This document shows, in pieces, positions 6,647 through 32,135 of a stretch of DNA of 64,000 nucleotides (the first letter of the stretch is position 1; every line of letters starts with the position of its first letter). The DNA lies in contig KE546981.1 in the NCBI GenBank assembly GCA_000442125.1, positions 1,156,741-1,220,740 of the forward strand. Reading direction: 5' to 3'. The position numbers and the translations under genes are program-made. Origin of the DNA: Opeltia flavorubescens. Its lineage: Eukaryota > Ascomycota > Lecanoromycetes > Teloschistales > Teloschistaceae. Below the pieces are notes generated by a model, which made no database searches, was not told where the DNA came from, and worked only from the letters and a program-made list of their open reading frames with translations.

Positions 6647-9256
6647 TTACACATGCTTGCTTTTTTTGTTTTTGCGGGATGGAACGAGCTCCTTCAAGCC
6701 TCGGACTGGAGCTGAAATCAACTCTCCCACAGTTTTAGATCTCTTGACCGGTTTGATCTCCTCCTCTTCCTCTTCTTCTACTTGCATTTGATCGTCCTGA
6801 TTTGTTCCACTACCATTTTCCAGACGTGATGGACATGGGCCATCAACACACCATTTCGTTGTGGGTGGAAGCCTCTCACCAGCGCACATCGCCTCGGGAT
6901 GGCCTTCACGGTGTTTGTCACTCCAATCTTGCCAGATCTTTGACCTCTTCTCGCGGCTGATCCATACTCGATTCAGTATCTCTGCGTAGCGGATCCCGCC
7001 TTGCTCTTCCCTCACAGCAACAAATAGTGCGATTTCCTGAGGCTCTTCGACTGGAAAACGACATAGGATTATCGCGAGAGGGACTTCTTTGGAGCATTGC
7101 TGCGCTTCTGGGAAGTCTTCAGTGTAACGCGCTGGCTCAACACGGTACCAGTCTAGGAGTGTGGATTCAGTAGAGAAATAGAATTTCTTTCGTGTATATA
7201 TTCTTCCCCTGTTCTCCTCCAGGTCATGAAGCATGAAACCCGGGAATTCAACCTCGAGGCCTTTCGGTATCGTTAGACGTGTGATACCCAGACTTGGTAA
7301 AGACAATGGGTCTGGTGAATCGATTTCATGGGACGATAACCAGGTTCTTGGAGCCCAGCCGAAGCCTTTTTGTGATAGCCTCGGGCCGGGAAGGAAAATC
7401 ATACCAGGGGGTATAGGGCATCTGGCCATGGCGGAGAGGCGAGTAAGGAGCTCGACCATCCTCCTATCGCATTCATCCTGGTGCTCATCTGATCCTTCTT
7501 CTGTTTCGGGTTTACTTGCAAAGAAATCTGTATCCAATCCGAGCATAGTAGCAAGAGCTAAAGCTTCATGAATTGGATGTGTCGTAGTTCTCCATTGTGC
7601 AGCTTTCCAAATTGAAGCAAGGTCTTCAGGCCCAGGGTTCCAACCTTCGTCTCTCCGAAACTCGGCATGGATTTTTGATCGTATATTGCCGAGTATCCCG
7701 GCGTGATAGGTCCGTGCAAGCGCTGGGATGCAAGACTGGAGCTCAGAGTCCTCATCAGTAAACATACCTTCCAGGTGACTCATGGGGTATATTCGATCCT
7801 TGAAGACGAAATAAAGCTCTTTGCTCAAAACAGCTTCTTGCAAGGTCCACATCCGTGTCATCCATCTAGACATGGTAATTTTCATTGCAGGACTAGAATA
7901 GCCCATTCCAGCTGTAGCATGCATGAGGCTCAGATCGAGGACTATTGTGTACTGGGCCCGAGTATACAAATTGTGCATCTGTCGGATAGCATTGCGACGT
8001 TCTGTCGCAAAGTAATTTCCTTGGGGAATTGTGAGGGTGTCGATCCAGAAGAACTCGGGTACCCTGGCCTTATTTCCGAATCGCAGTGTTGTGATTGTTT
8101 CGAGTAATTTGGAGAACATGTATAGAACACAGTGCTTCATTCCATTCTCAGTCTCGCTGCCGAATCCATCTGTCCAGACATGCGAGAATATAGCGTAGGG
8201 TTTGTTGAATGATTGACGCATCTCGAGCAGCTCTAATTTCTGCTTGTCCCTGTGATACTGGAGAAGGGGTATATTGCCTCGATTAATGATATCAGCCAAC
8301 TGACGGCCGCTAATTGTGCAGTAAGATTGGTTATCTATCCCACATTTGGGTGGTTTTGTTGGATGGCCCCCAATGTATTCAATCTTCGATCCAAAGGTAG
8401 AATCATCCAAGCAATAGTGATAATCAATCCGCTTTGCTTCGCCTTTGACACGGCGGATCTCGGTCTCATTACACTCAGTGGGTGTGCATCCACTATGATC
8501 TGATCCTTTCGAGCTAGACTGTCGAAGGTTCCAGAGATATATTAGGCCAATGGAGTTGCCTCTGAGCTGAGCCTGTAGCATATAAACCGATTTGGCACAC
8601 CACTTTTCCTCTTCGAGCTTCTGCAAGACCTCTCTGCCACATCCCCAGCCCTGAGCAGGCATGTCGTAACCACACCATCCTTCGATACGGAACCTGACCC
8701 TCCTCTGTATGAGGCTCAAGGCACGGGTCAGTGTTTCGCCGAGAACCATAAAGCTCAATGCAAGAAGATCATTGATTTCCCAGGTAGCGGTGTCCTCACG
8801 GTTCGCGACCGCGCAGTATTTTGACACATACGATCGTGATGTATCAAGCACCTGATGTATGCGGATCAATCTGCCTCTGCTTTCGACGCTCTGAGACTTC
8901 TTTTCGCTATCCAACCACCTTTCCAGGTATGATTGCAAATTGCGAGTGGTAACATATTCTGGACCGGCTGGGNTTTCTTGTACGAAATCTTGCCATCGAT
9001 AGTCTGGCAGATGCCCAAAGACCTGGGCCAGGAGTTCGAAGTACAGCCATCGTTGTGTGACACTCTCAAGCCCATCAGAGCCGGAATCCATGCTTCGTTC
9101 GCCATTCTCGTCGAAAGTCCATCCAAGAAGTTTAGGAAGGTTCACAAAGTCGTTGAAAGTTCTCACTGTTCGCCCATCGCTTTCGCCAGACAAGACTCCA
9201 GGATGGCAGTAGAGTTGGACTTTGTCGAAGTAAACGTCGCCTAAATGCTCAAACAT
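6647..9256 (-). CDS. HET-domain protein (heterokaryon incompatibility family)
   Basis: A single uninterrupted exon of 869 aa from the ATG at 9256; the frame continues to 9307 but only from GTG. The HET core is clear: YAIFSHVWTDGFG at about 354-366, FFWIDTLTIPQ at about 402-412, AIRQMHNLYTRA following, then RWMTRMWTLQEAVLSKELYF at about 464-483. The order YAI.SH.W / WIDTLCIPQ / W..R.WT.QE is the diagnostic order for HET. The roughly 340 residues before it are alpha-helical and unassigned. The C-terminus has an acidic E-run followed by a basic lysine-rich tail. HET domains trigger cell death on non-self recognition (family knowledge). One base N at 8973 makes residue 95 unknown. It is divergently arranged with the hydrolase-TPR-ankyrin gene at 9870, about 610 bp apart. 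Confidence 0.9.
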   Translation of the reverse strand: MFEHLGDVYFDKVQLYCHPGVLSGESDGRTVRTFNDFVNLPKLLGWTFDENGERSMDSGSDGLESVTQRWLYFELLAQVFGHLPDYRWQDFVQEXPAGPEYVTTRNLQSYLERWLDSEKKSQSVESRGRLIRIHQVLDTSRSYVSKYCAVANREDTATWEINDLLALSFMVLGETLTRALSLIQRRVRFRIEGWCGYDMPAQGWGCGREVLQKLEEEKWCAKSVYMLQAQLRGNSIGLIYLWNLRQSSSKGSDHSGCTPTECNETEIRRVKGEAKRIDYHYCLDDSTFGSKIEYIGGHPTKPPKCGIDNQSYCTISGRQLADIINRGNIPLLQYHRDKQKLELLEMRQSFNKPYAIFSHVWTDGFGSETENGMKHCVLYMFSKLLETITTLRFGNKARVPEFFWIDTLTIPQGNYFATERRNAIRQMHNLYTRAQYTIVLDLSLMHATAGMGYSSPAMKITMSRWMTRMWTLQEAVLSKELYFVFKDRIYPMSHLEGMFTDEDSELQSCIPALARTYHAGILGNIRSKIHAEFRRDEGWNPGPEDLASIWKAAQWRTTTHPIHEALALATMLGLDTDFFASKPETEEGSDEHQDECDRRMVELLTRLSAMARCPIPPGMIFLPGPRLSQKGFGWAPRTWLSSHEIDSPDPLSLPSLGITRLTIPKGLEVEFPGFMLHDLEENRGRIYTRKKFYFSTESTLLDWYRVEPARYTEDFPEAQQCSKEVPLAIILCRFPVEEPQEIALFVAVREEQGGIRYAEILNRVWISREKRSKIWQDWSDKHREGHPEAMCAGERLPPTTKWCVDGPCPSRLENGSGTNQDDQMQVEEEEEEEIKPVKRSKTVGELISAPVRGLKELVPSRKNKKSKHV

Positions 9257-9869
9257 TGCCAAGACACTATATCCTTTCGGGCTTGGCCGGCAGCGGTTAA
9301 CAGCCACGTCACACGGCCTGATTTGACAAAAGCAAGGAATTAATTCGACTTAAACTTTTCATCCTGGAAATCCTACTCTAAGTACTTGCGAATTACAGGT
9401 TCGCTGCGACTCCTCCCAGGACGATTGCAGCCTCGTAGAGGAATAGGGGCCATCACCGACCAGTATGATTGAGGATGGCGGCGCGTCTTTGCTCATTGGC
9501 CAGCCTGATGGAGAAGGTGTGGCAGCCTGCACGAATTATTGGTGGCGAGGACGGTTTGGGGCACCTACCTCGCGTGCTCGGACAGGTTGAAGAAAGAGGA
9601 GATTATGAGGGTGTCAGCATGCGCCGGGAGTCCCGCAGGAATCATGCCTGATAAGCATTGAGTTACATTACCGTACCACTCTCAAACCCTTGCCCCGCCT
9701 CGAAACCCCGAGGCTGATCCGTCAGGCTTCGACGTTCCCATGACACCGATATGTCGACCGCATCTCATCTGACAACCATTGTCCATTCTCTGGGCTTTGT
9801 TTTGATCTTACCGTCTCAAGAATCACAGAAACGATCAGCCATCGGTCTTAGGAGGTGTCCAGATTACTG
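9257..9869. promoter_or_regulatory. shared divergent intergenic region between HET gene and hydrolase-TPR-ANK gene
   Basis: 613 bp between two start codons pointing away from each other. It must hold both 5' UTRs and promoters, so co-regulation is possible. No specific operator could be read. Both open frames extend slightly into it from non-ATG codons. Confidence 0.4.
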
Positions 9870-12800
9870 ATGTTTGAGATAATTGCAGAACCTTTGAACA
9901 ATGTCGACGTTAGAGTTGACTTGGTCTTCGTTCATGGACTATCGGACGATTGGCGATCTACCTGGAAGAAAGATGGGCAGGATGGAGTGTCTTGGATACA
10001 AGATTTCATAACGAGTGACATCCCTCATGCTCGAATTTTCGCCTGCGGTCGCAATATCCTGGACGGTTCACGAACATATCAGCCTTTTCCGATCGATGGG
10101 CTTCAAGAATATGAGAGGAACAGATATAGCCAGAAACGGCCAGTGATCTTTCTTGCCCACAGTCTCGGAGGCTTGATTCTGCAAGCTTTCCTACAGGAAT
10201 GCAACCCTCTTCTCCGAAATTCGACGAAGGGCATTATCTTCTTCGGCACACCCAACCTGAGCTGGCAAGAAAATCAAAGAATCAATTTTGCAGCTGCCGT
10301 CCGCGCTCTTGGCCGTACTGTAAACTCCGATTACCTCTCCAATTTGGGCTTGATAAGTGATAAGTTTGCCGCGTGGGTTGTAGATCAACATTTCGCAGGG
10401 CGCATGATCTGTTTTTATGAGCGTCTGCCAGTTACAGGAAACATCATAGTAGTCGAAAAGGGATCAAGATTCTTACCTCGCTGCGATAGTAGAGGCCTCG
10501 ACGCTAATCACATGGATATGACAAAGTTCCAGTCGAGATCCAGTGCAAACTACCAGACTGTCTTACAGTCTCTCAGAAGTATGTACTGTCACGCTGATGA
10601 GGGTATGAGGGTACTTTTGAGACATTCACTGCAGCCGAACTCACATGGACGTCTCATCAACTTGCCCGCTACGCCAGACGGGTGCGAGGAGTTCATGGCC
10701 TCAACACAGGGGAGCGTGATTATCAGGGATATCGGCAGGCTTGCTCTTATAGCCGAAGACCAAGGTCATTATCAAAAAGCGGAATCAAGGTACCGCGCAG
10801 CAATTGACTCGCTACTATTGAGAAATAATTGCAGTCTTGAGGTCATCAATCTCGGGCGTCTTGCCATAAGATTTGCGGAACGAGGCTTTGAAGATGGAAC
10901 CGAAGAGGACTTCGAGCAAATAGCTCGATCTTTCCAAACGATGGGTTCAGCCGGGAGTGATGACACTGCTGTTCTATTCTGCTTGCATAAATGGGCATGT
11001 TTGCTCTGTAACCGCGGGCGATACAAGCATGCAGAGCTCTACAGCAGATGCTGTTTAGAAGCAAGGATTAGAATTACCGGCAAAGGATCTGCGTCTACAC
11101 TGCTGGCCGCCGCCAATCTAGTCTGGTGCTTAGTCCTGCAAAAGCGGCATCAAGAAGGGTACAACATCTTGCGAGATGCCCTCGAGCACCAAGATCTGGC
11201 ACTTTCATATTCATGTTCCGAGATCCCCTTGCTCAGGGTTCTAGTGCAGCTCGAGTTGGCGAGTGGCTCTCACGAATTGGCGGAAAGTTTGTCGAGCGAT
11301 ATTCTACGAAAGTCTATACGTGTCTATGGGTTCGGCCATCCGTTCACGTTGAGTTGCATGTCGGACCTAGCTGCTGTTCTTGCGCGAAGAGGACACTTAT
11401 CTCGTGCTGAAGCTCTGAGCCGTCGGGCTCTGAACGGACTTGAGCATGCACTCGGGAACGATCACCCGGACTGCTTGAAGACTGCTTGTAGACTCGCGAA
11501 CAACATCTGCTTCCAACAGCGGTACGATGATGCTACCGTGCGGCATAAGAAGATATTGAAAAAGCAGCAAATGCGGATTGGTAATGAACATCCAGACACT
11601 TTGCTTACGATGCGGAGCCTCGGAATAGACTTCGCTCTTCAACGATGTTGGAAGGACGCAGAAATTATATTGGATGAGACATTTCAAGGCCTGAAAGCCT
11701 GCCTTGGGCCAGAGGATACACACACAACGGAGACTGAAGATGCACTGCGGAATGTCAGAGAACTACAGGATCGGAAGGAGCACCCTCAAACTTTGCTTGA
11801 AGTCTTTCGACCCCAGTCAGGGCTTGTCTCTTACCGCTCTCTCACTTATGCCCGCAGCCCTTCATGTTTTCATACCTCCGTCGAAGATGAAGTGCTCCAG
11901 GCAGTCACAGAAAAGGACGAGCAAAGAGTCGTAGAAATTCTGGCCGGGGACAGAATCGGACCAACCGTTTCTGGAAGGGCACTTCGCGAGAGCGCTGCGA
12001 CTTCTCAGGAGCCACTGGTGCGGCATTTGCTGACCTGTAAAGTACCCTTGAATAGACAAAGTGGATACCATGGCACGGTATTGCAAGCGGCTGCGCTGGC
12101 AGGTAATGAAGCAATTGTCAAGCTCCTGCTAGAATATAAAATAGACATGTATGTAGTAGGAGGTCTTTTAGGCAACGCATTGCGAGCTGCTGTATTTGGG
12201 CGTAAAGAAGCCATTCTACGCCTCCTCCTCCAAGCAATTGCTCCTGGGAGGTTATCACAGGATGTTCTCAATTCATCACTGCAGCTTGCACTACGTCTTG
12301 AAGATTCAGCGATGATCGATCTACTATTGGGTGCAGGCGCAGATATCAACGCCGAAGACAGCTTATTCGGCAGTCCTCTCCAACAAGCCGCTTTCTACGG
12401 ACAGGAGAAAATCATGACAATCCAGCTGCGTAGCGCAGACATCAACAAACGAGGAGGGATATTCGGGAGCCCTCTACAAGCCGCGCTCGAAACCCAGAAC
12501 GAAGCAGCCGTCAACCATCTTCTCGAGGCCGGCGCAACCATCTTATCAAGCCCCAGAACCAGTTTTCCGAAGGGCCACATCTCCACACACGAACGTGAAG
12601 AACTAGCCAAAATCTTGCTAAAACGGCTTGCATATTCCCTGCCCCATCGATCCCTCTCTGTTGATTTCGGCCTATGGGATCCTATTCAAACTCCCAAGCA
12701 ACCAGTTGTCAGCTGGACACCGACAGTGGGATTCCGCAACAACTCAAGCAGCCATTTGCAGAAGCCTGTCCCACCGGAGGAAATACCTCGACCGAAGCGT

Positions 12801-12947
12801 GTATCGACCATGAAACGATTGCTGCTAGACCGGAAGAGTGGGAGCACGACAGATGTGTCCAAGCAGAAGCCACCGATACTGAATCCTAGCACGAAGAAGA
12901 AAAGAAGTATTCAGTCTTTGAGAAGGAAATTTAGCGGTTTGACGTGA
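9870..12947 (+). CDS. alpha/beta-hydrolase (SesB-like) - TPR - ankyrin protein lacking an NTPase domain
   Basis: Single exon, 1025 aa from the ATG at 9870; the frame opens at 9855 with GTG. Residues 1-230 form an alpha/beta hydrolase: VDLVFVHGLSDDW (about 17-29) and PVIFLAHSLGG (91-101, Ser98 the predicted nucleophile), then GIIFFGTPN. This is the lipase-like fold found at the N-terminus of many fungal NLRs and in SesB-type death effectors (family knowledge). Residues about 270-640 contain TPR units of the kinesin-light-chain type (NEHPDTLLTMRSLG). Residues about 690-885 contain ankyrin repeats (GTVLQAAALAGNEAIVKLLL, GSPLQQAAFYG). A basic Ser/Lys-rich tail follows. No P-loop or NB-ARC/NACHT segment lies between hydrolase and repeats, although that is where a fungal NLR carries it. 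It is paired divergently with the HET gene. Confidence 0.88.
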   Translation: MFEIIAEPLNNVDVRVDLVFVHGLSDDWRSTWKKDGQDGVSWIQDFITSDIPHARIFACGRNILDGSRTYQPFPIDGLQEYERNRYSQKRPVIFLAHSLGGLILQAFLQECNPLLRNSTKGIIFFGTPNLSWQENQRINFAAAVRALGRTVNSDYLSNLGLISDKFAAWVVDQHFAGRMICFYERLPVTGNIIVVEKGSRFLPRCDSRGLDANHMDMTKFQSRSSANYQTVLQSLRSMYCHADEGMRVLLRHSLQPNSHGRLINLPATPDGCEEFMASTQGSVIIRDIGRLALIAEDQGHYQKAESRYRAAIDSLLLRNNCSLEVINLGRLAIRFAERGFEDGTEEDFEQIARSFQTMGSAGSDDTAVLFCLHKWACLLCNRGRYKHAELYSRCCLEARIRITGKGSASTLLAAANLVWCLVLQKRHQEGYNILRDALEHQDLALSYSCSEIPLLRVLVQLELASGSHELAESLSSDILRKSIRVYGFGHPFTLSCMSDLAAVLARRGHLSRAEALSRRALNGLEHALGNDHPDCLKTACRLANNICFQQRYDDATVRHKKILKKQQMRIGNEHPDTLLTMRSLGIDFALQRCWKDAEIILDETFQGLKACLGPEDTHTTETEDALRNVRELQDRKEHPQTLLEVFRPQSGLVSYRSLTYARSPSCFHTSVEDEVLQAVTEKDEQRVVEILAGDRIGPTVSGRALRESAATSQEPLVRHLLTCKVPLNRQSGYHGTVLQAAALAGNEAIVKLLLEYKIDMYVVGGLLGNALRAAVFGRKEAILRLLLQAIAPGRLSQDVLNSSLQLALRLEDSAMIDLLLGAGADINAEDSLFGSPLQQAAFYGQEKIMTIQLRSADINKRGGIFGSPLQAALETQNEAAVNHLLEAGATILSSPRTSFPKGHISTHEREELAKILLKRLAYSLPHRSLSVDFGLWDPIQTPKQPVVSWTPTVGFRNNSSSHLQKPVPPEEIPRPKRVSTMKRLLLDRKSGSTTDVSKQKPPILNPSTKKKRSIQSLRRKFSGLT

Positions 12948-15818: not shown

Positions 15819-17669
15819 ATGGCGACGGCTTCAGGGATCATCAGCCGCGCGATAGAGTACTCCCCACTGCTGTGTGCACTGGCTACCGTGTCCGCCTTCT
15901 ATCTGCTTTGTCTCGGCGTCTACAGGCTCTATTTCAGTCCTTTGGCAAAAGTCCCGGGCCCGAAGTTGGCCGCACTTACCCTTTGGTATGAGTTCTATCA
16001 TGACTTTATCAGGAAGGGACAATACCTTTGGGTCATTGGCGAGATGCATGCCAAATATGGTCAGTCTGCATTGAATGATGACCTCGAAAGGTGGTCGATG
16101 AAAGATTTTTAACCTCAAGATATCACGTGCAGGTCCTATCGTTCGCATCAGCCCAAACGAGGTCCATGTAGCTGACAAAGACTTCTACGACACCCTCTTC
16201 GGATCGTCCGCGAGGCTTGACAAGGACCCATGGCTCTCAAACGAGCATCCGTCCACCATGGGAACTTCAGGCCATGAGCTGCACCGCTTACGCCGCAGTG
16301 TCCTAAACCCTTACTTTTCAACCCAGAAAATCCAGGATATCCAAGATCTAATCAAAGCGAAGATCCTCAAGCTCTGCGACATCCTGCAGGATCGACGCAA
16401 ATCTGGCTCGCCAATCGATATGAGAAGAGCGTATAGGGCAATGACCATGGATATTATCACTGAATATGTCATGACGGGTTCCTTCGATTATTTGGACAGC
16501 GAGGATTTTGGTGGAAGGTGGTACACTATGATCAGGAATGGGAGTGCGAGTCAGGTTATGATGACTCAGTTTCCGTGGATCATGCCGATTATGGCTGCAC
16601 TTCCTTACAAGCTAGCTATTACCTTGGCGCCAGATGCGGAAGCGGCGCTGGGTATACAAAAGGTATGATTGATCATCTCTATATCGAATTAAGATTGTCT
16701 AGTGGTTTGTTACTTATTCAATTGTTGTCGCACCGTTGAACTACGAAACAAGGAAATCAATATACAGTTTATTGACCATCGCGTACAGATGAACGAGCAA
16801 CAGATCCAAGAGATCAAGGACACTGGTCCCGACGCCCTTTACGAGGAAAAGACCCGTAAGCCATTAATGCACGACATCCTCTTCAAGAGCGAACTCCCAG
16901 AACCCGAAAAAGCAATCCCCCGTCTCGGCGCAGAAGCAACATTGCTCGTCATAGCAGGCTCCGAAACATCCGGTAATGCGCTCACGCAACTACACTATCA
17001 ACTGCTTGCAAACCCCGACAAGCTCGCGAAACTTCAGGACGAGTTGAAGGAAAGCGCTCCAGCAGATATCGCAGACATGAAGTGGCAAGATCTGAGGAAG
17101 CTTCCGTATCTGACCGCTTGTATTGAAGAGATCTTGCGGCTTGCACATACCACGATACATCGACTTGCCAGGTTTGCACCGAAGGAGGGTCTTACGTACG
17201 GGGATTATCACATTCCCGCTGGTGTAGGTTTCCTATGTCTCTTCGAATGATTTGCGATCACTGATCCGAATGGATATCATAGTACACTGTCAGCATGACC
17301 ACTTACTTCACACACATGGATCCAGAACTCTTCCCAGACCCCGAAGCTTTCATCCCCGAGCGTTGGCTCTCCCCCGAGGCGAAACATCTCAGCAAGTACG
17401 TCAATCCGTTTTCTAAGGGCACGAGGATCTGTCTTGGGATTGAGTAAGTCTGCTCGTCCATGCTCATGCAATCGGTTCTTGGTGTATTTGAGGTGCTGAT
17501 GAGGAGTAGGCTTGCATATGCAGAATTGTATCTCACGGCAGCTTATGTCTTCCGACACTTCGAGACTAAGTTATTTGAGACGACGAAGAGTGATATTGAG
17601 GTTGTACATGATTTCTTCAATGGATATCCGAGGGCTGATTCGAAGGGTGTGAGGATTACGGTTGTTTGA
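15819..17669 (+). CDS. cytochrome P450 monooxygenase
   Basis: Five exons: 15819-16059, 16133-16662, 16753-17223, 17283-17443, 17510-17669; 520 aa with all phases consistent. An N-terminal membrane helix is followed by the proline hinge VPGPK. The I-helix motif is AGSETSG, the ExxR is in EEILR, the PERW segment is FIPERWL, and the haem loop [10 protein letters not shown] gives ligand Cys464. The segment [20 protein letters not shown] and the following [13 protein letters not shown] resemble the fungal CYP58/trichodiene-oxygenase-like group (recognition from memory, moderate). It is expected in the ER membrane with a CPR partner, oxidising a small lipophilic molecule. No terpene synthase, PKS or NRPS gene is nearby, so the substrate cannot be inferred. 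The gene looks intact. Confidence 0.92.
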
Positions 17670-17796
17670 GATGGGATTTGCTTTTGAACTACGACCTTTA
17701 TGTGAGAATATATGGTAAAGCTATAGTTGGTAATGCTGAGCAGTGACGACTTCCAAAATGGGACAATGAGTCAACGAGAATGATGCGGCGTTTCAA

Positions 17797-17852
17797 AGCT
17801 TTTCCGAAGTAAAATATTGAAGCTTTTCCGAAGTAAAATATTGAAGCTTTTC
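17797..17852. repeat. 24-bp tandem repeat, 2.3 copies
   Basis: Two perfect adjacent copies (17797-17820 and 17821-17844) of a unit starting AGCTTTTCCG, then a partial third copy. It lies just 3' of the P450 gene. Confidence 0.9.
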
Positions 17853-18018
17853 AAAATGCTGTGCCAAGTATGGCATATATACACATACAATGCTGATGCG
17901 CCATCCATCCCCAAGAATTGGATTTACAAATTTCGTCGTCATCATCATAATACACACCACGTCCCCTTAACCAACCAATCATTGCCTCCCATGTTCCCCT
18001 CGATGCTGCGAAAGATCC

Positions 18019-18844
18019 TTACATACTCGGAACATTATAATACGTAGCCATCCCATCGCTCAAGTGTACACCTCCGTCCGCTTGGCAGAAGCTGTTGTAC
18101 TTCCACACGTAATCGCCGTATGCTGCTCCGGCGCCCATGTTGCCCGTACCACCTCTATAGACAGCATTAATATCACATACCAGGAATCGTTATATGATAT
18201 GTGAGAAGAACGTACCTCTGCAGTCCAAAAAACTGATCCGCCCCCAATTTATCCCACAGCTGCCGTTGACAGCCTGTGGCTACGCCCACGTCGTTACTAT
18301 TTCCCAACACAAGTCAGCATCTAACACTCCCCAATCACCTGCACAAATTGAAAAACTGGAATGGAAGAAACATAAACGTACTGTGCCTCCTGCCCCTTAC
18401 TCATCCAATCCCCCTCCCCCGCGCCGGCAAAATGATCGCAGTATGTCCGGAGCATGTACCAATTATTCCTGTACACGCCGATTTCCGCATTGTCGTTGAC
18501 TTTGTTGTTGCCGATTGAGAAGGCGCCGGTGAAGGCGCAGCCGTTTTCTAGCATGGCTATTGCGATGTCTGTTTTGTGATGGTCAATTTATTTCCTATAT
18601 GTGATATCCTTGGGGGCGAAAGTAGGAGAATTGGGGTTTCGTGACCGGACTTACCGACTGATTGCGCGCCTGCATTGAGCAGGGCTTGCTTTGCTGATGA
18701 AGTACTCCCTGGGTCGGGACATGTGAAGGGTTCGCCTTCTCCGCCTCTGCGCTGCAGGCCCGAGACGAGAGTTGTAGGCATAGACAATACCGGAAGTGAC
18801 AGGCTGCATAGCACTGCTATGCCTGAGCTGAGTTTGAGATGCAT
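18019..18844 (-). CDS. small secreted protein, unknown family
   Basis: Four exons on the minus strand, 18844-18655, 18568-18382, 18296-18216 and 18154-18019, give 197 aa with all phases closing (donors GTAAGT, GTACGT, GTACGT). The first ATG in frame is 18844; the longer frame begins with TTG. A hydrophobic signal peptide (LKLSSGIAVLCSLSLPVLS) precedes a mature chain with five cysteines, one in each of FTCPDPG, ENGCAFTG, LRTYCDHF, ATGCQRQL and NSFCQADG. The chain is glycine-, asparagine- and tyrosine-rich. I do not recognise the family. Secretion is inferred from the signal sequence. The consistent four-exon reading frame makes a real gene very likely. An apoplastic or effector-like role is only a possibility. 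Confidence 0.8.
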
Positions 18845-19674
18845 GTTCAAGAATGCTCGGATTCCTATTGAGGGATATTCTTTTGTCGGGAAATAAATGA
18901 ATGAAATTTTGTAGGCGTTGGATTTGCCGATCTACGGCTATTGGACAGATTATTGGATGGTGGTGGTGGTGGTCACGATAGACGCTTCCCAAGTTCCAGA
19001 CCGGGAGTGGAGAGGAGTATTAGGCGTCGTCGTGATAGGGAGAAAAGTGAGATGATGGGCCGCCATGGTGGTTTATGTATGTTTTCTCTTCTTCTTGAGA
19101 TTTGACCATGTGTGGGTTTGATGAGGAGGCTCAGAACATGAGATGAGACAATCTGTTTCCCGTGTCGGCAGTATAGTTCGAAACGTAGCACCTCATATTG
19201 TCAAACGAAACTTGTGTTTACAATCTTCCTCCTAGGAAAGTTTACAGCTGCTGGGAAGCTGCAAGATGCAGGAACAGAATTCCGTGGGAAATGCGGCTAA
19301 GATCTTGACGATAACCGAACTAATGCTGCAATGGGCTTTAGTGCTGTTTTAGCCAGGGGATGATGGGGGTCGGTCGTGCCGTTTCATCGCTCTTGCGCCT
19401 AACCTCCGACCGTCTATTTTGGAACTTCAAACTTTGCGCTCGAGCAGTCTTTCGTTTCGTTGTGATCGTGCGCTGCTCAGCCTTTTTGGCTGCGTGTTCA
19501 GTCTTCATATTTCCGAGGAGTACCACAGTCTGTATGTCATAGGGGTTACCAGCCGGTCAACTCATCTCTGAAGGAATATTCCAGACACGGTTGATGAAGG
19601 ACCTTTGCTGCCCTCACAAATCATATCGTATGCAGGAAGTAAGATTTGGTCATTCCTGTAATATGAGATTTCGA
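18845..19674. other. intergenic, 0.8 kb
   Basis: Upstream region of the secreted-protein gene and downstream region of the next one. A short (TGG)n stretch lies near 18957-18973. No gene is seen. Confidence 0.5.
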
Positions 19675-20502
19675 TCAAGTCGCAGGCTTCGAATAATCCA
19701 AAACTTTGCCGTCCGCACTGACAAAGACCTGACTCTGCGGGTCCTTCGCAGTATAGAACACGCCATCCACCTCAATCGTATCCGCCCAGGCAGTCTTCGT
19801 CGGCCCCTCGAAGATTATGAAACCTTTGCTTGCCGACCTGATCCCCCTCTTCTTCTTATTGAATATCGGCCCACCCATATCCATCCTCGCATAATCCACC
19901 AACCTCTTACCAAGCCTTTTCGTCCCCGGTAGCAAGCCCGATGTACCTCCATGAAACCCACTTCCCAATCCCCACTTCGCAGCCATACTCAGCGCCGCTG
20001 GTCCATTCGTCCTTCGACTCATCCACTGCGAATCCTCTGTGAAGAACGCAAGTGCACCTTCACCCTCCAGCCAAGCCTTCTCCGTGTCTGTGGGCTCCCT
20101 TGCCGGTAATCTCGCATAGCAAGCTCCCGTGATATTCCTAGGATCGTCCTCCGGCACCTCGAACTCCCAACTCCCTCCGCCTAGATAATTGGCCAACGAG
20201 TTGCCCGTGCAACCTGAGTTTGGCGGCTCCGCGGAAAACGCAGCGGCGACGTCGTTGACAGCGAGGCCGTGGAATTGGACTTTCTTCTTGGGGTACAGAT
20301 TGTCGAACTCGGGGTCGGCGGGCACTTCGCAGCATACGCCAGGGAGGAGATTCATGCATATTTTTGGCATCGGTGCTCCCCTCATTGGGAACCGGGCGTT
20401 GGGATCATCTCGGCGGGAGATGGAGACCATGACGGAAGCGGAGGTCGGGGTGATCTGGGAGAGAAGGTAGAGGACCGATGGGAGGAGAAGGAGGGAAAAC
20501 AT
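19675..20502 (-). CDS. secreted protein, unknown family
   Basis: Single exon of 275 aa from ATG 20502. The signal peptide (MFSLLLLPSVLYLLSQ) probably ends near TSA. The mature part has a cysteine cluster, ICMNLLPGVCCEVP, then SGCTGN and GACYAR, giving five cysteines in the N-terminal half. The C-terminal half is basic (KRLGKRLVDYAR, NKKKRGIRS) and ends with a beta-rich segment (DTIEVDGVFYTAKDP). I do not recognise a catalytic motif. A clean ATG, a signal peptide and long coding length support a real gene. It is probably extracellular or wall-associated. No introns were detected. Confidence 0.72.
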   Translation of the reverse strand: MFSLLLLPSVLYLLSQITPTSASVMVSISRRDDPNARFPMRGAPMPKICMNLLPGVCCEVPADPEFDNLYPKKKVQFHGLAVNDVAAAFSAEPPNSGCTGNSLANYLGGGSWEFEVPEDDPRNITGACYARLPAREPTDTEKAWLEGEGALAFFTEDSQWMSRRTNGPAALSMAAKWGLGSGFHGGTSGLLPGTKRLGKRLVDYARMDMGGPIFNKKKRGIRSASKGFIIFEGPTKTAWADTIEVDGVFYTAKDPQSQVFVSADGKVLDYSKPAT

Positions 20503-20584
20503 TTCTTGTGAGCGGCCTACTGTAGCGGCAGGAGTGGAGAGGATACACCTGCAGTAATCGCAATCACTGTTTCCTCAACCTGAT

Positions 20585-21025
20585 TTAGGTCAACGTCTCC
20601 CTCTTATGTTCCTTAGGTAGACATATCTGCAACGGGAGCACAAGAGCAAAGTCCATGCGCTGTGGCGAATGTGGAGTAGGATCAATCGACGCGGCTGATA
20701 GTCTACCAAATTTACACATGGCCAACCCGAAAAGGTAGAGCTGGCTCTCTCTTTCTGGACTGAAGAGCCTCTCAAGAAGGCTCGCTTCGATCTTTCCGGT
20801 TTGTCCGGCGAGGGTTGTCGCATGCAAACCCACGAATAGAAATGCGTCACGCGATACGCGCACTTGCCGAGCAGACTTGAACATAGGTATCGGAATATAA
20901 ATTTCATGAGAATCAGGTTCTGGAATGAATGCTATATCTTTGCCATCCACTGCCAGGCCATGCAATCGTTGGTCCAAAGTCGCGAGTATGTAATGGGCTG
21001 CTAATCTCGCTAGATTTATCAACAT
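20585..21025 (-). CDS. hypothetical protein, weakly supported
   Basis: Open frame of 146 aa from ATG 21025 (the frame extends to 21049 from a TTG). It contains hydrophobic and basic stretches but no recognised motif. It lies between the secreted-protein gene and the Nudix gene, all on the minus strand. It could equally be a chance open frame or part of a UTR; I have no splice or homology support. Confidence 0.25.
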   Translation of the reverse strand: MLINLARLAAHYILATLDQRLHGLAVDGKDIAFIPEPDSHEIYIPIPMFKSARQVRVSRDAFLFVGLHATTLAGQTGKIEASLLERLFSPERESQLYLFGLAMCKFGRLSAASIDPTPHSPQRMDFALVLPLQICLPKEHKRETLT

Positions 21026-21187
21026 ATGCAGGAAGCTCGATACGGGCAAAGTGATTTGTGCATTTCCTGTTTTCTGTACCCAAGCTCTGTCGATAGCAGT
21101 TGAGATTTGGCTCGACTACCATTCCGGTGCTTGGCCCCGAAGATCAACACCCAGAGAAGGCGGAAACGAAGTTTCTGTGGTGGATTC

Positions 21188-21691
21188 TCAAATAAGAATC
21201 TCCGGCCTGACACCAGGACGCTGCCGTAATATATTCAGCAATGGTGTGAATAGTTGCTTTTCGATGACTCCAGTGTCTCTATCATCTGCTTGATTCGCCC
21301 ATCTCAACACATCCTCCCAACTCGCCCATTCCCAACCCTCGCATTTCTCCGGCTCTAGGGTTTTGGGCTCATCTTCTTCATTCTCGCGCACACAGACCAT
21401 GAATAACGTGACATAGTGCTTCGTATCTTCTTGCATGTAGTCGTTCGTAGCGGTTAGGAATTTGACGTTTGTGACCTTTAAACCAGATTCTTCAAGGACT
21501 TCGCAGGCGGCACATGTCTCTGGTGACTCGCCAAATTCGAGATGACCGCCCGGTAGAGCCCAAGTTCCGGCGCCGTGGGAATTGATACGTTTACCGAGTA
21601 GGAAGTGAGGGTTCTGGGTGGATTGTTGGGAGGAGGACTGGAGGATGAAGACGCCGACGCCGACGCGAACTCTGGGAGTCGCGGATGACAT
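21188..21691 (-). CDS. Nudix hydrolase, NUDT15/MTH2-like, with altered Nudix box
   Basis: 167 aa from ATG 21691; the open frame reaches 21772 but only from a TTG. The order matches the NUDT15 group: RVGVGVFIL, LLGKR...GAGTWALPGGHLEFGES, then the Nudix box and EPEKCEGWEW. The Nudix signature is G-x5-E-x7-R-E-U-x-E-E-x-G-U. Here it reads GHLEFGESPETCAACEVLEE, so the invariant Arg is Cys63 (codon TGC at 21505-21503). The metal-binding glutamates of the EVLEES part are kept. Family members hydrolyse nucleoside triphosphates such as oxidised purine NTPs. Loss of the Arg may lower activity or mark a pseudoenzyme. A single C-to-T change from CGC would produce it. Confidence 0.85.
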   Translation of the reverse strand: MSSATPRVRVGVGVFILQSSSQQSTQNPHFLLGKRINSHGAGTWALPGGHLEFGESPETCAACEVLEESGLKVTNVKFLTATNDYMQEDTKHYVTLFMVCVRENEEDEPKTLEPEKCEGWEWASWEDVLRWANQADDRDTGVIEKQLFTPLLNILRQRPGVRPEILI

Positions 21692-22312
21692 GACTTTTAG
21701 ACCATTTGATATGAAGGTCAATGCTGCAAAATTATCGGGCGTGCTAGGAGACCGGGAGGTTCTCAGCCGCAATCCCCAGGCGATGAGGAGGTGATCACGA
21801 AGTAGCTACTTTCAGCCAGAGCCCCGAATTGTGGTTTAACTTTCATCGTTCTAGACACTTCTTTACTTTCGAAATATAGCATGCCCTATGTAACTATACT
21901 GATGATTACTCTATCAAACGTCACTATACATGTATGTTGTAGATGAGAATCTCCGCGGCATCTGACTAACCAGAAGCTAGGGCGAATTAGGTCTTAGAGG
22001 TGTTCTAGACCACCTCTAGCTATGTCAGCGACATCGTCATTGTACATTGGTAGGCATATCAATGAATGGCTATAGCTACTCAGTTGGGCTAAAAGCTTTC
22101 TCTGAACGTCACGTCTGGGGTGTTGGGGGACAATGTATCGCAACAGTTACTGAAGACGGAAGATGCTTGATAATCCAAATTTCTAGACCCGTGAACGGGG
22201 GATATAAAGCGATGCAATATCTACTCCAAGACCCATCTTTCCAAACAAGTCCATTCCGAACAAAGTATCAGAAGTACGGAATTCTCAATTCTAATACAAC
22301 TATCGAACCAAC

Positions 22313-23206
22313 ATGCCTCCCTACACCACTTCAACCCTCACTCTCCCCTCTAAAATTGAGATCTTCTACCGCCACGCCGGCTCCTCCAACCTCCCCACCC
22401 TCCTCCTCCTCCACGGCTTCCCAACCTCCTCCCACCAATTCCGAAACCTAATCCCGATCCTCTCATCCTACTTCTACGTCATCGCCCCCGACCTCCCCGG
22501 CTTCGGCTTCACCACCGTCCCTGAAAATCTGAACTATAAATACACATTCTCTAAACTCACTGACACGATCGATGAATTCCTCTCCGCCATGACTATCAAG
22601 AAGTTCGCAATGTTCATCTTCGACTACGGCGCTCCTGTCGGACTGCGTCTTGCCTTGAAAAATCCGGATGCAGTGACGGGGATAGTAAGCCAGAATGGCA
22701 ACGCCTATGAAGAAGGTCTTGGGAAAGATTTCTGGGCGCCTGTGCGCGAGTACTGGGCTTCGAGTGAGGATTCTAAACCCGCATTCCGTGAAAAATTAGG
22801 GAACGAGTTTCTGGTCCTTAAGGCGACGAAATGGCAGTATGAAGCCGGGAATCCTAACCCTGGGAAGATTCAGCCCGAGGCGTATTTTCTTGATCAGGCG
22901 CTTCTGGAGAGAAAGGGGAATAAGGATGTACAGTTGGATTTGCTGTATGATTATCAGAGTAATGTGAAACTTTATCCGGAATTTCAGAAATGGTTGAGGG
23001 AGAGTAAAGTCCCTGTGCTGGCGATGTGGGGGAAGAACGATGTGATTTTTGTGCCCGAGGGGGCGGAGGCGTTTAGAAAGGATGTGCAGGAGGAGAGATT
23101 GGAAGTCAAGTTTGCGGATGGCGGACATTTTGCCCTGGAGGGGCAGGAGGACGTTTTCGCGGAGGCTATTGTGGGGTTTTTGGGGAGGTTTTGGGTGGAT
23201 AAATGA
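22313..23206 (+). CDS. alpha/beta hydrolase, haloalkane dehalogenase/epoxide hydrolase type
   Basis: Single exon, 297 aa from ATG 22313. The oxyanion segment is LLLHGFPTSSHQF (32-44), the loop YVIAPDLPGFGFT follows, and the nucleophile elbow FDYGAPVG makes the nucleophile Asp104 rather than serine. The acid is probably Asp243 (MWGKNDVIF) and the base His272 (DGGHFALE). An Asp nucleophile in a D-W/Y-G-A elbow is the mark of haloalkane dehalogenases and epoxide hydrolases, not of esterases. The cytosolic location is inferred from the lack of a signal peptide. The 5' part is strikingly C-rich in codon third positions, typical of well-used fungal genes. Substrate unknown. Confidence 0.88.
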   Translation: MPPYTTSTLTLPSKIEIFYRHAGSSNLPTLLLLHGFPTSSHQFRNLIPILSSYFYVIAPDLPGFGFTTVPENLNYKYTFSKLTDTIDEFLSAMTIKKFAMFIFDYGAPVGLRLALKNPDAVTGIVSQNGNAYEEGLGKDFWAPVREYWASSEDSKPAFREKLGNEFLVLKATKWQYEAGNPNPGKIQPEAYFLDQALLERKGNKDVQLDLLYDYQSNVKLYPEFQKWLRESKVPVLAMWGKNDVIFVPEGAEAFRKDVQEERLEVKFADGGHFALEGQEDVFAEAIVGFLGRFWVDK

Positions 23207-23780
23207 GATTTGACAGTGGTGGTGGATGGCGGAACCTAGATAGTATAGATTTACTCCATACGAAAGTCGTTCTTTAATAATAATATTTTCAGTCCATCGA
23301 TGTGATTGCTCATTTTATCCGTACCGTATCTACAGTTGTTTTGCTAGAGAATGTCGAACTTCTTTGTAAGCTCAGCTTTTGGTGGGGGTTGGCGGGCAGT
23401 CATTGACGAAGCCTTTGTATAGAAGTTGAGGTCGAAAACGGTTATTAGAAGAGTAGTGGAGATGGCAAAGAACGAATTGATACGGCTTGGCTTCAGTAAC
23501 CCATTGTTGCTCTTTTGAAGACTGTTGCTTAGAGCTGCCAAGTCCTACAGGTTTGACGCTCACACGAATTGCTAACAGTGGTGGGAATCTCGACTGTAGG
23601 TTTAATTAGCGCTTGCCATATTATGTAGGTGCACAATAATGTTTTTGCCGAGTGATTGTATACATTTTCGGCTGAGTAATCGGAATGGCTGCTCATCTTG
23701 TAGGCCTATCAGGTGTGCGTAGTAAATCAATGCTTCAGATGCTTGTTGAAGAAGATCAAGTAATCAGGCGCCTGAAGGGT
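23207..23780. other. intergenic, 0.6 kb
   Basis: 3' region of the hydrolase and of the decayed HET gene, which converge here. No gene seen. Confidence 0.5.
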
Positions 23781-24991
23781 TCATGCCTCCTGCTGCAGCT
23801 TTTGCTCATTTTTGAGATATCTCAACGCGTTGTCCGCGAAGGTGTCATCCCACAGCTCGATGTATATTCGTACGTCGAGTTTTGGGCCATCTTCCTCGGT
23901 CCAATAATGGATGTCGTCAGCCCCAACTCTTACAAAGAGGTTATGCGTCGTCTTTTTGAGATACATCTTGATATGCTTTTTGGTTCCGTCTTCCAAACGT
24001 ACCGTACAAGCAAGCCGAAACCTTGCTATATTTTCAGCTTCCCGGCAATCGATATCCATCTGTAAGCCATGATTTGTTATAGTGAACGGTGACTTGCCTG
24101 ATATAGCGCGAGGCTCCGCCTTGTTCCCCGGTACGCTTGCATCTTGACCAAATGCCGAAAAGCTGCTGGGGACGGCGCTAAGGTGTCAGAAGTAAGGCTT
24201 TTCAGGTCTATTTTGCAGGTCCAGGCAAAAATAGATTCATCGTACGACGATCGAATAAGCTCTTCCTGTAGTCTTCTGAATGATCTTGACCCTTCGCCGT
24301 AGAGTAAAGGTATGATGATCCGAGAAATGCCCATGAGACAGTATGCGATGTCTTCCGATCGAGTGGTGCTCCGGTTTGACGCCCAGGACATCCTAGTAGC
24401 GATACTTGTTCCGGCCTCGGGATTACATAAGTAGAATGCATTGATGATTGTGGTCTCACTAAGTTGCTACTTGAGAGATCTCTTGGTCCCAATGTACTTC
24501 CTCTCGCAATCGAAGAAAGCCAAGCGAGTTGGAGCCAGGAGTTCCTGCAGTGTCCAGCCCCTGGTGAACGACCTGCTATCTTTGAAAATCTTCCGGTCGT
24601 CTCTGGGGGTAGCCCCTCGTGACACGTCGGCCAGAAAAGCAAAGCAGAATTCTGCTTTGGAATAATTGCGATACATAGAATTGATAGCCTCGGAAAGCTC
24701 CGCGCTGCTCTTTTTATCGATACATCACGTATCAACCCAAGCATAGGTAATTGAAGCAGACATTCCGAAGTACTCATATCTATTGTGCATAGCGCCCACT
24801 ATCGCGCAGAATTTCTTGATCTTGCAGAATCCCGATTTTTGACGGATCGCGTCTGGGCGTGGCCATTTGTTGAACTCTTAGAACGATATCTCCTCGTTTC
24901 CTCAGGTATGTGAAAGTATGCCGAAGAAGGGAGCGCTTTCATCACTTATGAAATACTCTAGCTGGACTGTGTTGACGTTGATGAGCCACAT
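23781..24991 (-). pseudogene. decayed HET-domain gene (premature stops and a frameshift)
   Basis: From ATG 24991 the minus strand reads MWLINVNTVQLEYFISDE then FFGILSHT, the classic HET start. Further on it reads YAWVDT, KKSSAELSEAINSMYRNYS, then SRSFTRGWTLQELLAP, RMSWASNRSTTRSEDIAYCL, PLLYGEG and FTITNHGLQMDIDC. These are the expected HET blocks in the expected order. The frame is broken by TGA after SHT where the family has W, TAA after EISF where it has Q, TGA after WVDT where it has C, TAG after KRSLK, and a one-base deletion in an A4 run (24158-24161, plus strand). Three of the four stops fit C-to-T or G-to-A transitions. The C-terminal part ends at 23781. Introns do not explain the stops because coding continues in the same frame on both sides. 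Confidence 0.88.
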
Positions 24992-25273
24992 GACATCGTT
25001 ACTAGTAGATATGGTCCAAGACTTCTGTTGAAAGTATTACGATTAAAGAATGATAGGAAGTGCGATATATCAGATGAGACATGGATTCCATCGATTCTTC
25101 TCCCTGTAAAGATCTAAATGACGTAAGGATGACACTAGTGCTAAATCGGGCTACAGTGGTGTGCAGGTTCAAAGCCGCTACAAATCTTTCCGTTACCTTA
25201 ACTTTCAATCTTACTTGTATCATTGATCGGTTAATTCTTTCATCTTCTCGGACCATGAGTCTTGTCGCTTCGC

Positions 25274-27239
25274 TTACTCCTCCGGCTCTCGATGATCAAG
25301 TCGTCCTATATGGACCGGCGTGACTAGAGCCAACGCCACGAGAAATGCAAGAAGTATGAAGATAAAAGCGAGGCGTAGAGAATCTTCGTACGCATGCTGT
25401 ACCTGCGCAAGGTGAATGGGGTTCAAATCATTGATAGAATGCACCGACTTGCGGATAAGGTGGATGATCTAATTGATAGCATCAGGGAATTTCCTTGCAA
25501 ACAAACGAGCATACAACAGGTGATTACCTCTTCGCGGTTGTCTCCACTGACATACGCCTTCAAATAGCGCGGCAATGCAAATTGTACAAGCAGACTGCTT
25601 ATAGCGACCCCCATGACGGTGCCTAAACCTCGCCACAAGATTTGTGTGGTACTCATAACAGCTTGGTCTTCCTTGACGCTATGAGCCAGGTTAGCAACCG
25701 CAATTGCTGGGTTGGTGAGACCTGTCCCAGTTGTGGGAAAGAAGACGGCTATCGTAGCCCCTGCGACTGCCGCATGGCGTGGCAGCGCAGCCATCGCAAT
25801 ACTACCGGCCAACGATATCAGAGTCCCGATTATGATGAGTGGTTTTGGACGTCCTGTCGCGTTGATAATCAAACCCGATGCGACGCCGCAGAAGGTGTAT
25901 CCTATCGTCGGGGCCACTAGTCGAAAGCCAGACATCGAAGGTGAGTCTAAATTGACCACTTGGAAATAAAGAGGGGCGTTGAAGACCATCGCGTTGGCTC
26001 CCATGAAAGTGAAGAACTGGTGAAAGACCATGTTGCCTCGAGGTTTAGTGGCTAGCAATTTCAACGGCATGACAGGCTTCGGAGCCCGTCTTTCTACCCA
26101 TACCAGAGCCGATCCTGCAACGACAGACAGCACAAGGGCGACGGTGATGAAGGGATGAGACCAGGGAAGGATATTTCCCCCAAGGTTAAGGCCAAGAATA
26201 AGTAGTGACACGGCCGCCGTAAGAAGGAAGGATCCAGCCAGATCAAAGCTCCGGACAACCTTCCACCTTGACTTTGATGAGTCACTCTTCGCCAGGCGAG
26301 GTCCCAAGCCATGGGGTGTTACTATGACCGCTACGATCAAAATCACCAGGAGTGGTGGGACTTGAACCCCAAAGGTCCACCGCCATCCTAATGTATCGCA
26401 GAGGAAACCTCCAAATGCTGCTCCCATTGCTGCACCTGATCCCCACGCTAGGTTGACAAGCGCCTGGTAGAAGCCTCGAATACGCATTGGCACCAAGTCG
26501 TTTGTGAGGATCGCACCCATGGCAATAATGCCTCCTGCACCCAAGCCACAGAAAGCACGAGCCAAAATGAGGCTTTGCATCGACTGAGCCAGAGCGCACC
26601 ATATGTTCGTCAGGGTGAAAAGACTGAGCGAAAAGAAGTAGATCAATCGACGACCAAAGAAGTCCGAGAGCCTGGAGTAGAGCGGCTGAACGGCAAGGTA
26701 AGTGATGAAGAAGGCGGTCGAAAGCCACGACGCCGAGTCGGAGGCTTTGAAGTAGCTCGTGATGTTCGGATGGCTCGAAGCCATCATCGTACTGTCGAAA
26801 CAGGCGACCTGCCAGAATGTAAGTACGTTTGCGATGCGAAAAGAGTGTAGGTATGTACAAAATACTGAAGCAGGACTCCTGAATAGAGGACCCAGAATCG
26901 TTTCCTGCTGATACCACAGAGATACGGCGACCCTTTTCCTGCCGGTGGACTTGCGTAGCCATCTGGCTCGGAGCTGTCGTTGCTATATTGTTTTCCATCA
27001 GAAGGATAGCTGACTGTCTTGTCCAGCTGAGCCGTTGGACCTGGCCCTGGCCCGAGACCCTGCCCATCTACGAGGGCAGCGGCGTCGACCAAGACATTGC
27101 CTCCTTCACATTCATGTTCAGGGGAAGGGATCCTGGAGTGATGGCTCAGTAGCGGAGTCTCTTCATCAGTCATGTGCTTTGAGCCAAATCTGGGGTCTGA
27201 TTTGGAAAAAGTGGTCTCGTCGCGTCCATTTGATGACAT
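25274..27239 (-). CDS. MFS multidrug/amino-acid exporter, DHA2 (VBA-like) family
   Basis: Three exons: 27239-26859, 26808-25528, 25468-25274; 618 aa. Introns are GTACAT...GGCAG (50 nt) and GTAATC...ATTAG (59 nt). A hydrophilic N-terminus of about 110 residues contains DEETPLLSHHS, an acidic dileucine-like signal that often directs fungal transporters to the vacuole. Motif A between TM2 and TM3 is SRLSDFFGRR, and the GGIIAMGAILTNDLVPMRIRG segment is typical of 14-helix DHA2 drug:H+ antiporters and vacuolar basic amino acid transporters. About 14 hydrophobic helices are present. The C-terminus ends GRLDHREPEE. Substrate inferred only by family. It heads a run of four same-strand genes up to 33.2 kb. 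Confidence 0.9.
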
Positions 27240-28439
27240 GGTGAAAATAGCAATACTCGATGTAGCGCGAGCAGATGCTCAGGGAGAATGTTTGAGGTAA
27301 TTGTCTTTTCCATTTGGTGATGCCCGCAACCATGCAGGCAGGAGACGTCATGATGAAGACTCGCATGCGAGGGACAGAATTTTCCATGGGGACGATTTGG
27401 CGGCAACCCTCGGCCTCGCCGGGCCACCAATCCCTATTGGATCAATCTTTTTTGATTAACCACCAAGAGAAGGACGTGTAAGCTGAGCAACAAAACGGGA
27501 TGGAGTACGAAGCAGAAAGGAAAGGAAAAGATGCGGACTTCAATCCAGACACGCTGCACCAACGGATTTGAAGTGATATCATTGCGGCTGAATTGGATGT
27601 CAGATCTCTGGTCTGGATTCGGTCTTAGGCTTAGGGTTCATCGAATTATCTGCATGGCTTGCGTCAAAAACATGCAGTCTTACTGCCGTACGACCATGTC
27701 CGATGTCAAAATGTGGCTACTTTTCTCATTACGGCAAATCCGGATATTGATCCGATCAACTCATCTCGATCCTAGTCTATTTGTCTGGTATTGGTATCCT
27801 TCCGATCTAGCAATCCATGAATATGGAAATGGGGTCGAAAGGTTTCGCTATTTACAGCACCACATGTTGGTCGGTTTGAACGCGGAAATGGTCCGATCGT
27901 TGTCGCTTCTCGCAGTTATTCGGCTCTGACTGCTTGCGTTTATCATTTTTGGGATGATTCTGCACGTCAAAGGCTAGCGTTGGCTTTCTTTGTCTCTAGC
28001 CCGTCGCTTAAGCTGACTGAATAGAACGAAAAATGGTCTCTTCGTACTCTGGTTCAAAAGTTGCTTTGATGTCGATTACAGACTTTCGGATCTCCTAACC
28101 TCTTGCCTCCACCTTCTATACTGAAAAGGTACAAAACTATTACTCTACCCATGGTTGGGTTGCAGTCATGTTTTTATTACCTACTTATATTCCCATACCT
28201 CTCGGGGGCCGCAGCTATGGTTTTGTGTGTACAATTAGTCTTGAGCATTGGCCTGCCATGATCTCCTTGGACTATGGATATCATCTTGGCGCAGTCTCGC
28301 GGACAAGCTAAATATGCCTGCTCCTCCATAGTCCAGGGAGAAAGCGATATGGACATCAGTCTTGCCTCAGCATTTCCCTCAAGCGCGAATGTCTGAAATC
28401 GGAGGGTCGACGCTCATTCTTATACAGCCAAGTTGCCAT
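27240..28439. other. intergenic, 1.2 kb
   Basis: Between the two MFS genes. A 132-codon plus-strand frame at 27531-27929 has no recognisable motif and is rejected. Probably the promoter of the exporter and the 3' region of the permease. Confidence 0.5.
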
Positions 28440-30147: not shown

Positions 30148-30636
30148 CACAGCTGTAAATAAATTGAATGTCCTTCTCTACACCAATGCAGCGAAATCGC
30201 GGGGTTAAGGAATTGAGCGGGGGGGAGGGGGAGTTTACCATCGGATATCGCGCCGATCCAAAATGTGACAGCACGATCAGTTGAATGGCCCGTCCTTCCC
30301 CGCTTTAGACCCTGCACAAAGTGCATGGTATATGCACCTTAGCGACTGATATGCAGCTGCTACCGATGGGGGAAACGCAGGTACTAGCCTGTGCCCCACC
30401 CAACCGCTCATTCGTTGCCACTGACACCGTATTTGCTGATTGATGCTGGGACAACAGTCCCATGCAATGACAACTGCCAAATGGGCATCGATTCATACTT
30501 TGACTTTCTATTCCGAGCAAGGGTACTTCTCACCAGAATCTATAGACGACTGGAAGTCGCCATATTTGTTGGGACATGGCCTAAATTGGTCTACTCGTAT
30601 ATATGGCAACGTACCAATAATGAAAGCTTTGTTTTC

Positions 30637-31575: not shown

Positions 31576-32135
31576 TGAAAACTCTTCTTCATTCCAGATG
31601 TTGGAGAAAGCTACCTATTGCCGACGGTCATTTCCTTGAGCCTTTATGAAACCTTGGAATTTTGACTGGAGTATTGGCTGCACGTGGGCTGCAGCGGTAT
31701 ACTGAATTGGGCTTGGAGGAATGTACCGGTTGCCGCATGACAGAAAATGAGGTAATGGCCGGAACTGAAGGAACAGTCTGCATGTGCTGTGCGGTAGAAG
31801 ATCGATCAGGTAAACGCATGGCTACGTTCACTGTGTTGTAGAACTTGCCAACTGGATTGTCCCCCCTGTAATATGTGAGGAGACTCAAGCACGTGTTAGC
31901 TGTCACGTCCGACAGATACCGAACACGAGGCCCTGCATTCTGCAGCTGCCCGCTAGCTCCTCGTGTCGGACCGAGTTTCCACGCGAAAAGTTACATCTCG
32001 CGCAGGAACATGGGCGTCACAGTCGGAGGAACGAGTACAGGACTTCGGTAGTATTTACGTAATAATCTGGGCTTACATAAATTGACTTTTGGTAAATATT
32101 CTTCGTCCGACTCAATCCAATCACAATCGGCGGTC
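31576..32135. other. intergenic, 0.56 kb
   Basis: Promoter region of the sulfotransferase-like gene and 3' region of the amidinotransferase gene. No further gene seen. Confidence 0.5.

Follow-up and report, generated by a model that had tools for sequence, protein, structure and literature searches.

A conserved SesB-like hydrolase-TPR-ankyrin protein without an NTPase, encoded beside a HET-domain gene in Lecanoromycetes

Fungal NLRs are thought to signal through oligomerisation of their NOD module. In the closest described architectures, the SesB-like NLRs of the sesB/NACHT/ANK and sesB/NB-ARC/TPR types, such a module accompanies a SesB-like hydrolase and C-terminal repeats; internal identity among fungal NLR repeats is often high, and Podospora NLRs differ in repeat number (Dyrka et al. 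2014, PMC4986451). At the het-B locus of Podospora anserina, adjacent genes are reported to act together, one encoding a HET protein (the HET-lectin Bh) and the other a different presumed sensor (the PII-like Bp) (PMC10890737). Aspergillus fumigatus hetC and hetD carry NLR-type enzymatic effectors, namely patatin and PNP_UDP domains, without a NOD; in the available portion of their description they seem to act in isolation, no neighbour with divergent alleles is reported and TPR or ANK arrays go unmentioned (PMC11138114). HET domains are described as remote TIR relatives and inducers of cell death (PMC12881547; PMC10890737), and the second of these sources, in the part available, gives the killing mechanism of HET proteins as unknown.

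Here we analysed a 64,000-nucleotide stretch of Opeltia flavorubescens contig KE546981.1 (the window), in which a preliminary description had proposed a SesB-like hydrolase fused to TPR and ankyrin repeats with no NOD. Domain layout, a Walker A scan and a continuous structure model confirmed that observation. The gene is laid out as follows.

9870..12947, plus strand: whole coding sequence, 1025 aa in a single open frame (hydrolase, linker, TPR, ANK, basic tail)
9870..10598, plus strand: SesB-like alpha/beta hydrolase with a monoglyceride lipase fold, residues 1-243, from alignment to 62 other hydrolase segments
10599..10715, plus strand: family-specific linker of 39 residues, 244-282 (LLRH..LP.TPDGCEE..ST.G), in the place that a NOD would occupy
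10716..11807, plus strand: TPR block of nine TPR-like helical hairpins, residues 283-646
11877..12539, plus strand: ANK block of seven ankyrin hairpins, residues 670-890
12645..12944, plus strand: basic disordered tail with a short C-terminal helix, residues 926-1025 (K+R 20, D+E 6)

The protein thus has an N-terminal hydrolase homologous to that of SesB-like NLRs and the same kinds of C-terminal repeats; unlike the SesB-like NLRs as described, it has no NTPase and holds both repeat kinds together, and its repeats differ from one another and keep to a nearly constant number. Like hetC and hetD, it combines an NLR-type enzymatic effector with the lack of a NOD. As at het-B, a HET-domain gene lies adjacent; here, however, the HET partner is a large hydrolase-TPR-ANK protein. 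Each part is already known, and the combination of parts and the HET pairing look new: titles and abstract openings of the open-access literature searched gave no description of either.

We defined the family as 31 sequences including the window protein (P0001-P0026 and P0176-P0180). P0020 and P0177 are partial sequences from the same Flavoplaca navasiana assembly, and the sequences are therefore not separate genes throughout. All 26 aligned sequences (the window protein and 25 relatives) matched the TPR_12 and Ank_2 models, and in 19 of them the hydrolase region was covered by more than 180 residues; the other seven are incomplete models or ORF calls, several starting near an apparent intron as read from the alignment, and a full hydrolase is claimed for 19 only. 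Walker A motifs were found in 0 of the 31 family sequences and in 9 of 13 hydrolase proteins picked for comparison, the other four being NTPase-free candidates. These counts bear out the expectation that hydrolase-TPR-ANK would be conserved among relatives without an NTPase. The family is narrowly distributed: its 18 named sequences carry the names of Teloschistaceae genera, Letrouitia or Circinaria, with lineages looked up for three. Only partial TPR, ANK or hydrolase matches were found when the same genome was searched for a close second copy.

A hidden NTPase in the window protein was ruled out by Pfam at E<=1, by the Walker A scan and by the structure model, which leaves no NB-ARC, NACHT or AAA segment between hydrolase and ankyrin repeats, as had been proposed. 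Across the 26 aligned sequences, no P-loop family occurred among the 25 commonest of the 45 Pfam families matched. No NTPase was found: the linker is much too short, there is no Walker A, and in the continuous AlphaFold2 model the hydrolase passes straight into the TPR block. The 1025-aa protein has an NLR-type N-terminal effector domain and C-terminal superstructure-forming repeats; lacking the central NB-ARC/NACHT NTPase with a P-loop, it falls outside the definition of an NLR and is at most NLR-like without the switch.

In place of a NOD stands the best-conserved segment of the protein. Mean pairwise identity among P0001-P0017 (n=17) was 0.715 in the linker (residues 244-282), 0.644 in the hydrolase, 0.634 in the TPR block and 0.664 in the ANK block, and a linker profile run against 239 proteins matched nothing beyond the family at better than E 0.29. 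The linker behaves like a working part rather than the scar of a deletion. Two other hydrolase proteins offer partial parallels. P0198, a hypothetical protein of Thelocarpon impressellum, has the same hydrolase-TPR-ANK order and no Walker A; it falls outside the family clade, is absent from the best linker-profile matches listed, and differs in having near-identical ankyrin repeats. P0204 (Elasticomyces) is a hydrolase-ANK protein, also without a NOD.

Within the set of 239 proteins, profile comparison confirmed SesB-like homology of the hydrolase (P0188, 3.2e-39; P0184, 1.8e-38; P0029, 1.9e-36); against PDB sequences, the hydrolase alone gave no match better than E 0.079. An alignment of 81 segments that passed the span filter, 19 from the family and 62 other hydrolase segments, placed the putative active site.

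10161..10163, plus strand: codon of the nucleophile Ser98 (AHSLGG); Ser in 17/19 family sequences and 62/62 others
10419..10421, plus strand: codon of Glu184, probable catalytic acid (FYE motif); 19/19 family sequences and 61/62 others
10509..10511, plus strand: codon of His214, probable catalytic histidine (ANHMDM motif); 19/19 family sequences and 60/62 others (one Tyr, one gap)

Gly198, in a V.KDSA-like motif, was rejected as the acid position; that site is not conserved in other hydrolases either, and Glu184 is. From this alignment we infer that the triad Ser98-Glu184-His214 is intact in the window copy, which could therefore be an active enzyme. P0006 (Xanthoria aureola) and P0011 (Flavoplaca citrina) retain the acid and the histidine and have Gly at the nucleophile position; they are possibly pseudoenzymes or sequence errors. 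Catalysis is perhaps not essential, because the nucleophile is missing in 2 of 19 sequences, and some species may do without it if the two Gly sequences are not errors.

The repeats are unlike the hypervariable repeats of NLRs. With repeat bounds drawn by hand from the structure model, internal identity averaged 0.27 (maximum 0.39) in the TPR block and 0.30 (maximum 0.42) in the ANK block, so the high internal repeat conservation that is common, although not obligatory, in NLRs was not seen. Their number is nearly constant. None of the 26 aligned sequences had an additional repeat; 23 residues spanning ankyrin hairpins 4-5 are missing from P0015, the last TPR of P0024 is 8 residues short, and P0020, a partial sequence, stops inside the ANK block. 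A strictly constant number is contradicted by P0015 and P0024, whether through real change or gene-model error. Near-constancy of this kind suggests that the ligand is fixed.

Upstream of this gene lies a feature that the preliminary description did not include, a HET-domain gene arranged head to head with it.

6647..9256, minus strand: divergent HET-domain gene, 869 aa; HET domain at residues 354-439, about 7940-8197 (PF06985, E 4.7e-10)
9257..9869, unstranded: intergenic region, 613 bp between the start codons, possibly a shared promoter

The model of the HET protein, built from 79 of its 105 homologues, reached pLDDT 85.6. Its N-terminal 310 residues and its C-terminal beta-rich part gave no clear fold match, which does not in itself point to a new fold. 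Both members of the pair end in disordered tails: that of the hydrolase protein (window 12645-12944) is basic, and in that of the HET protein (residues 812-869) basic residues come after an acidic stretch. A single ambiguous N at window position 8973 leaves one residue of the HET protein undefined; further single Ns occur at 4036, 33198, 34334 and 48173. Elsewhere in the window, a second HET-domain stretch (24620-24916, minus strand) contains two TGA and one TAA within the match and is probably a pseudogene or an intron-containing fragment. Two frames with a fungal rhodopsin domain (PF20684; 1327-2004 and 3005-3775, minus strand) may represent exons of a single membrane protein or of two. Within 17 kb (16702-33206), a P450 frame occurs together with an alpha/beta hydrolase, two frames for MFS transporters and a short match to arginine deiminase, possibly a metabolic cluster. 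Ten other open frames of the window had no Pfam match at E<=0.001.

Within one genome a HET neighbour would be unremarkable, because this genome has 88 HET matches; a search of it for a second copy of the HET gene itself returned only partial matches at 23-37% identity. Across relatives, the locus tag of a HET homologue neighbours that of the hydrolase protein in 10 of the 18 named relatives, where neighbouring means the next tag number (next but one in Blastenia): Blastenia, Xanthoria sp. 2, Gyalolechia sp. 2, G. marmorata, Pyrenodesmia, Flavoplaca citrina, Polycauliona sp. 2, Xanthomendoza, Loekoesia and Circinaria. Seven of the 18 offered no named HET sequence for comparison, and in Xanthoria aureola the two genes have distant tags and lie on separate short contigs of 10.3 and 10.7 kb. 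Contig sizes point the same way. The longest contig was of equal size for hydrolase and HET sequences in 16 of 30 relatives, a comparison scripted for 46 of the 105 HET sequences, with no further matches seen by eye among the other 59; equal size is strong but indirect evidence that the contig is the same. Locus tags and contig sizes carry no orientation, and the head-to-head arrangement is known from the window only. The association spans two subclasses of Lecanoromycetes, from Blastenia (Teloschistales) to Circinaria (Pertusariales), and a link between the genes is supported because adjacency is retained over that distance. Adjacency in these relatives may nevertheless be one inherited state instead of many independent events.

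Trees of 17 pairs shared 7 of 14 splits, including deep and well-supported ones, with a distance correlation of 0.92; they place G. marmorata and Circinaria differently, with fair support, and their other conflicts are weak. Such congruence would also arise through vertical descent. HET homologues without a detected hydrolase counterpart occur in Xanthocarpia, several Letrouitia (for example, Letrouitia transgressa), Brigantiaea, Endocarpon and more distant fungi; there the partner is either absent or was overlooked by the word-based searches. One HET homologue, P0072 (Letrouitia leprolyta), is 77% identical over 93% to the window HET protein. Blastenia is similarly close (76% over 80%), and the other Teloschistaceae sequences are more distant; P0072 is possibly mislabelled or from a mixed assembly.

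The conserved neighbourhood suggests that the two genes work as a pair. We therefore read the hydrolase-TPR-ANK protein as a conserved NTPase-free sensor or scaffold enzyme whose gene and the adjacent HET gene together make up a two-gene module, with a probability of roughly 0.5. Of three interpretations offered in the preliminary description, a non-NTPase sensor-effector fits best; its idea of a protein that partners another NLR survives as far as the partner is concerned, and the NLR gives way to the adjacent HET protein because the neighbourhood of the HET gene is conserved. That description's interpretation as a whole is partly supported. Judged by this arrangement, the hydrolase protein probably acts with the HET protein and regulates it. 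By analogy with het-B, the partner bound by the TPR-ANK superhelix would be a fixed one, with the HET protein or a target common to both as the likeliest. Control of the hydrolase, release of the HET protein, or both would then depend on the binding state of this scaffold and not on a NOD that exchanges ADP and ATP. The HET protein would induce cell death through its TIR-like domain, the basic tail may carry the hydrolase to a membrane, and regulated cell death or immunity would result. We propose more tentatively, as a possibility on the doubtful side, that this is a distinct class of NTPase-free fungal immune sensor-effectors in which a SesB-type hydrolase is switched by the TPR-ANK superhelix and family-specific linker in place of a NOD, gating a co-inherited, divergently transcribed TIR-like HET executioner in a cell-death module found across lichen-forming Lecanoromycetes.

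Degeneration from an NLR would explain the same architecture: a SesB-NB-ARC-TPR(-ANK) ancestor would have dropped its NOD, and what is left would act on its own as an effector or decoy that another NLR of the genome switches. The family's 18 hydrolase sequences form a single clade (100/100) among fungal SesB-like hydrolases, most of them from NLRs, in a midpoint-rooted tree of 80 sequences from which P0021 was omitted for its incomplete N-terminus, and NOD loss in the ancestry is plausible on this evidence. Compared with the FxSxx_TPR model, the TPR block aligns to the model's TPR portion (E 1.8e-27, below the cut-off set for it), and P0044, a protein named FxSxx_TPR, has an NB-ARC. The same genome contains 50 NPHP3_N (NACHT-type) matches, fragments counted, and 4 NB-ARC matches; it also has a hydrolase-NACHT frame with an ankyrin frame behind it. 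Moreover, het genes of A. fumigatus are described as NLR effector domains without the other parts (PMC11138114). P0192, a hypothetical protein of Bathelium mastoideum, has hydrolase, TPR and ANK like the family and, unlike it, an NB-ARC/NACHT segment with GIGGSGKT. Its alignment to the family covers the hydrolase only, ankyrin-on-ankyrin matches aside, so derivation of the TPR-ANK part from a Bathelium-type NLR is unsupported. No NOD remnant was found, the linker is no decaying scar, and the family clade sits on a long stem for which the 80-sequence tree gives no resolved sister among NLR lineages, so that loss is at most plausible. An NLR that lost its switch, as suggested earlier, could have given rise to a hydrolase placed among those of NLRs; we consider this origin unlikely.

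A housekeeping lipase or adaptor without an immune role, next to a HET gene through inherited microsynteny, appears improbable too. Some microsynteny persists in fungal genomes, and a single conserved copy with near-constant repeat number and even conservation across domains behaves like a constitutive gene; against this stand the narrow distribution and an N-terminal domain from a family that serves as NLR effectors. An artefact, with two genes joined or an NTPase concealed in an unrecognised intron, is extremely improbable. We found nothing in its support beyond the models of P0022 and P0024, which the alignment shows to be shortened near an apparent intron within the hydrolase. The window holds one open frame, 19 sequences read through the hydrolase-linker-TPR junction without insertion, and the structure model is continuous; a two-gene fusion was rejected on the frame and the junction, and gene-model error appears very unlikely.

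Conserved effector and sensor parts without an NTPase, beside a HET gene, provide a direct test of whether a NOD is necessary, and the pair bears also on how HET proteins are controlled. An expansion of the HET and ankyrin protein families is reported for the lichen fungus Cladonia grayi (PMC6652019). The pair described here is a candidate non-self or symbiosis-related system of lichen fungi.
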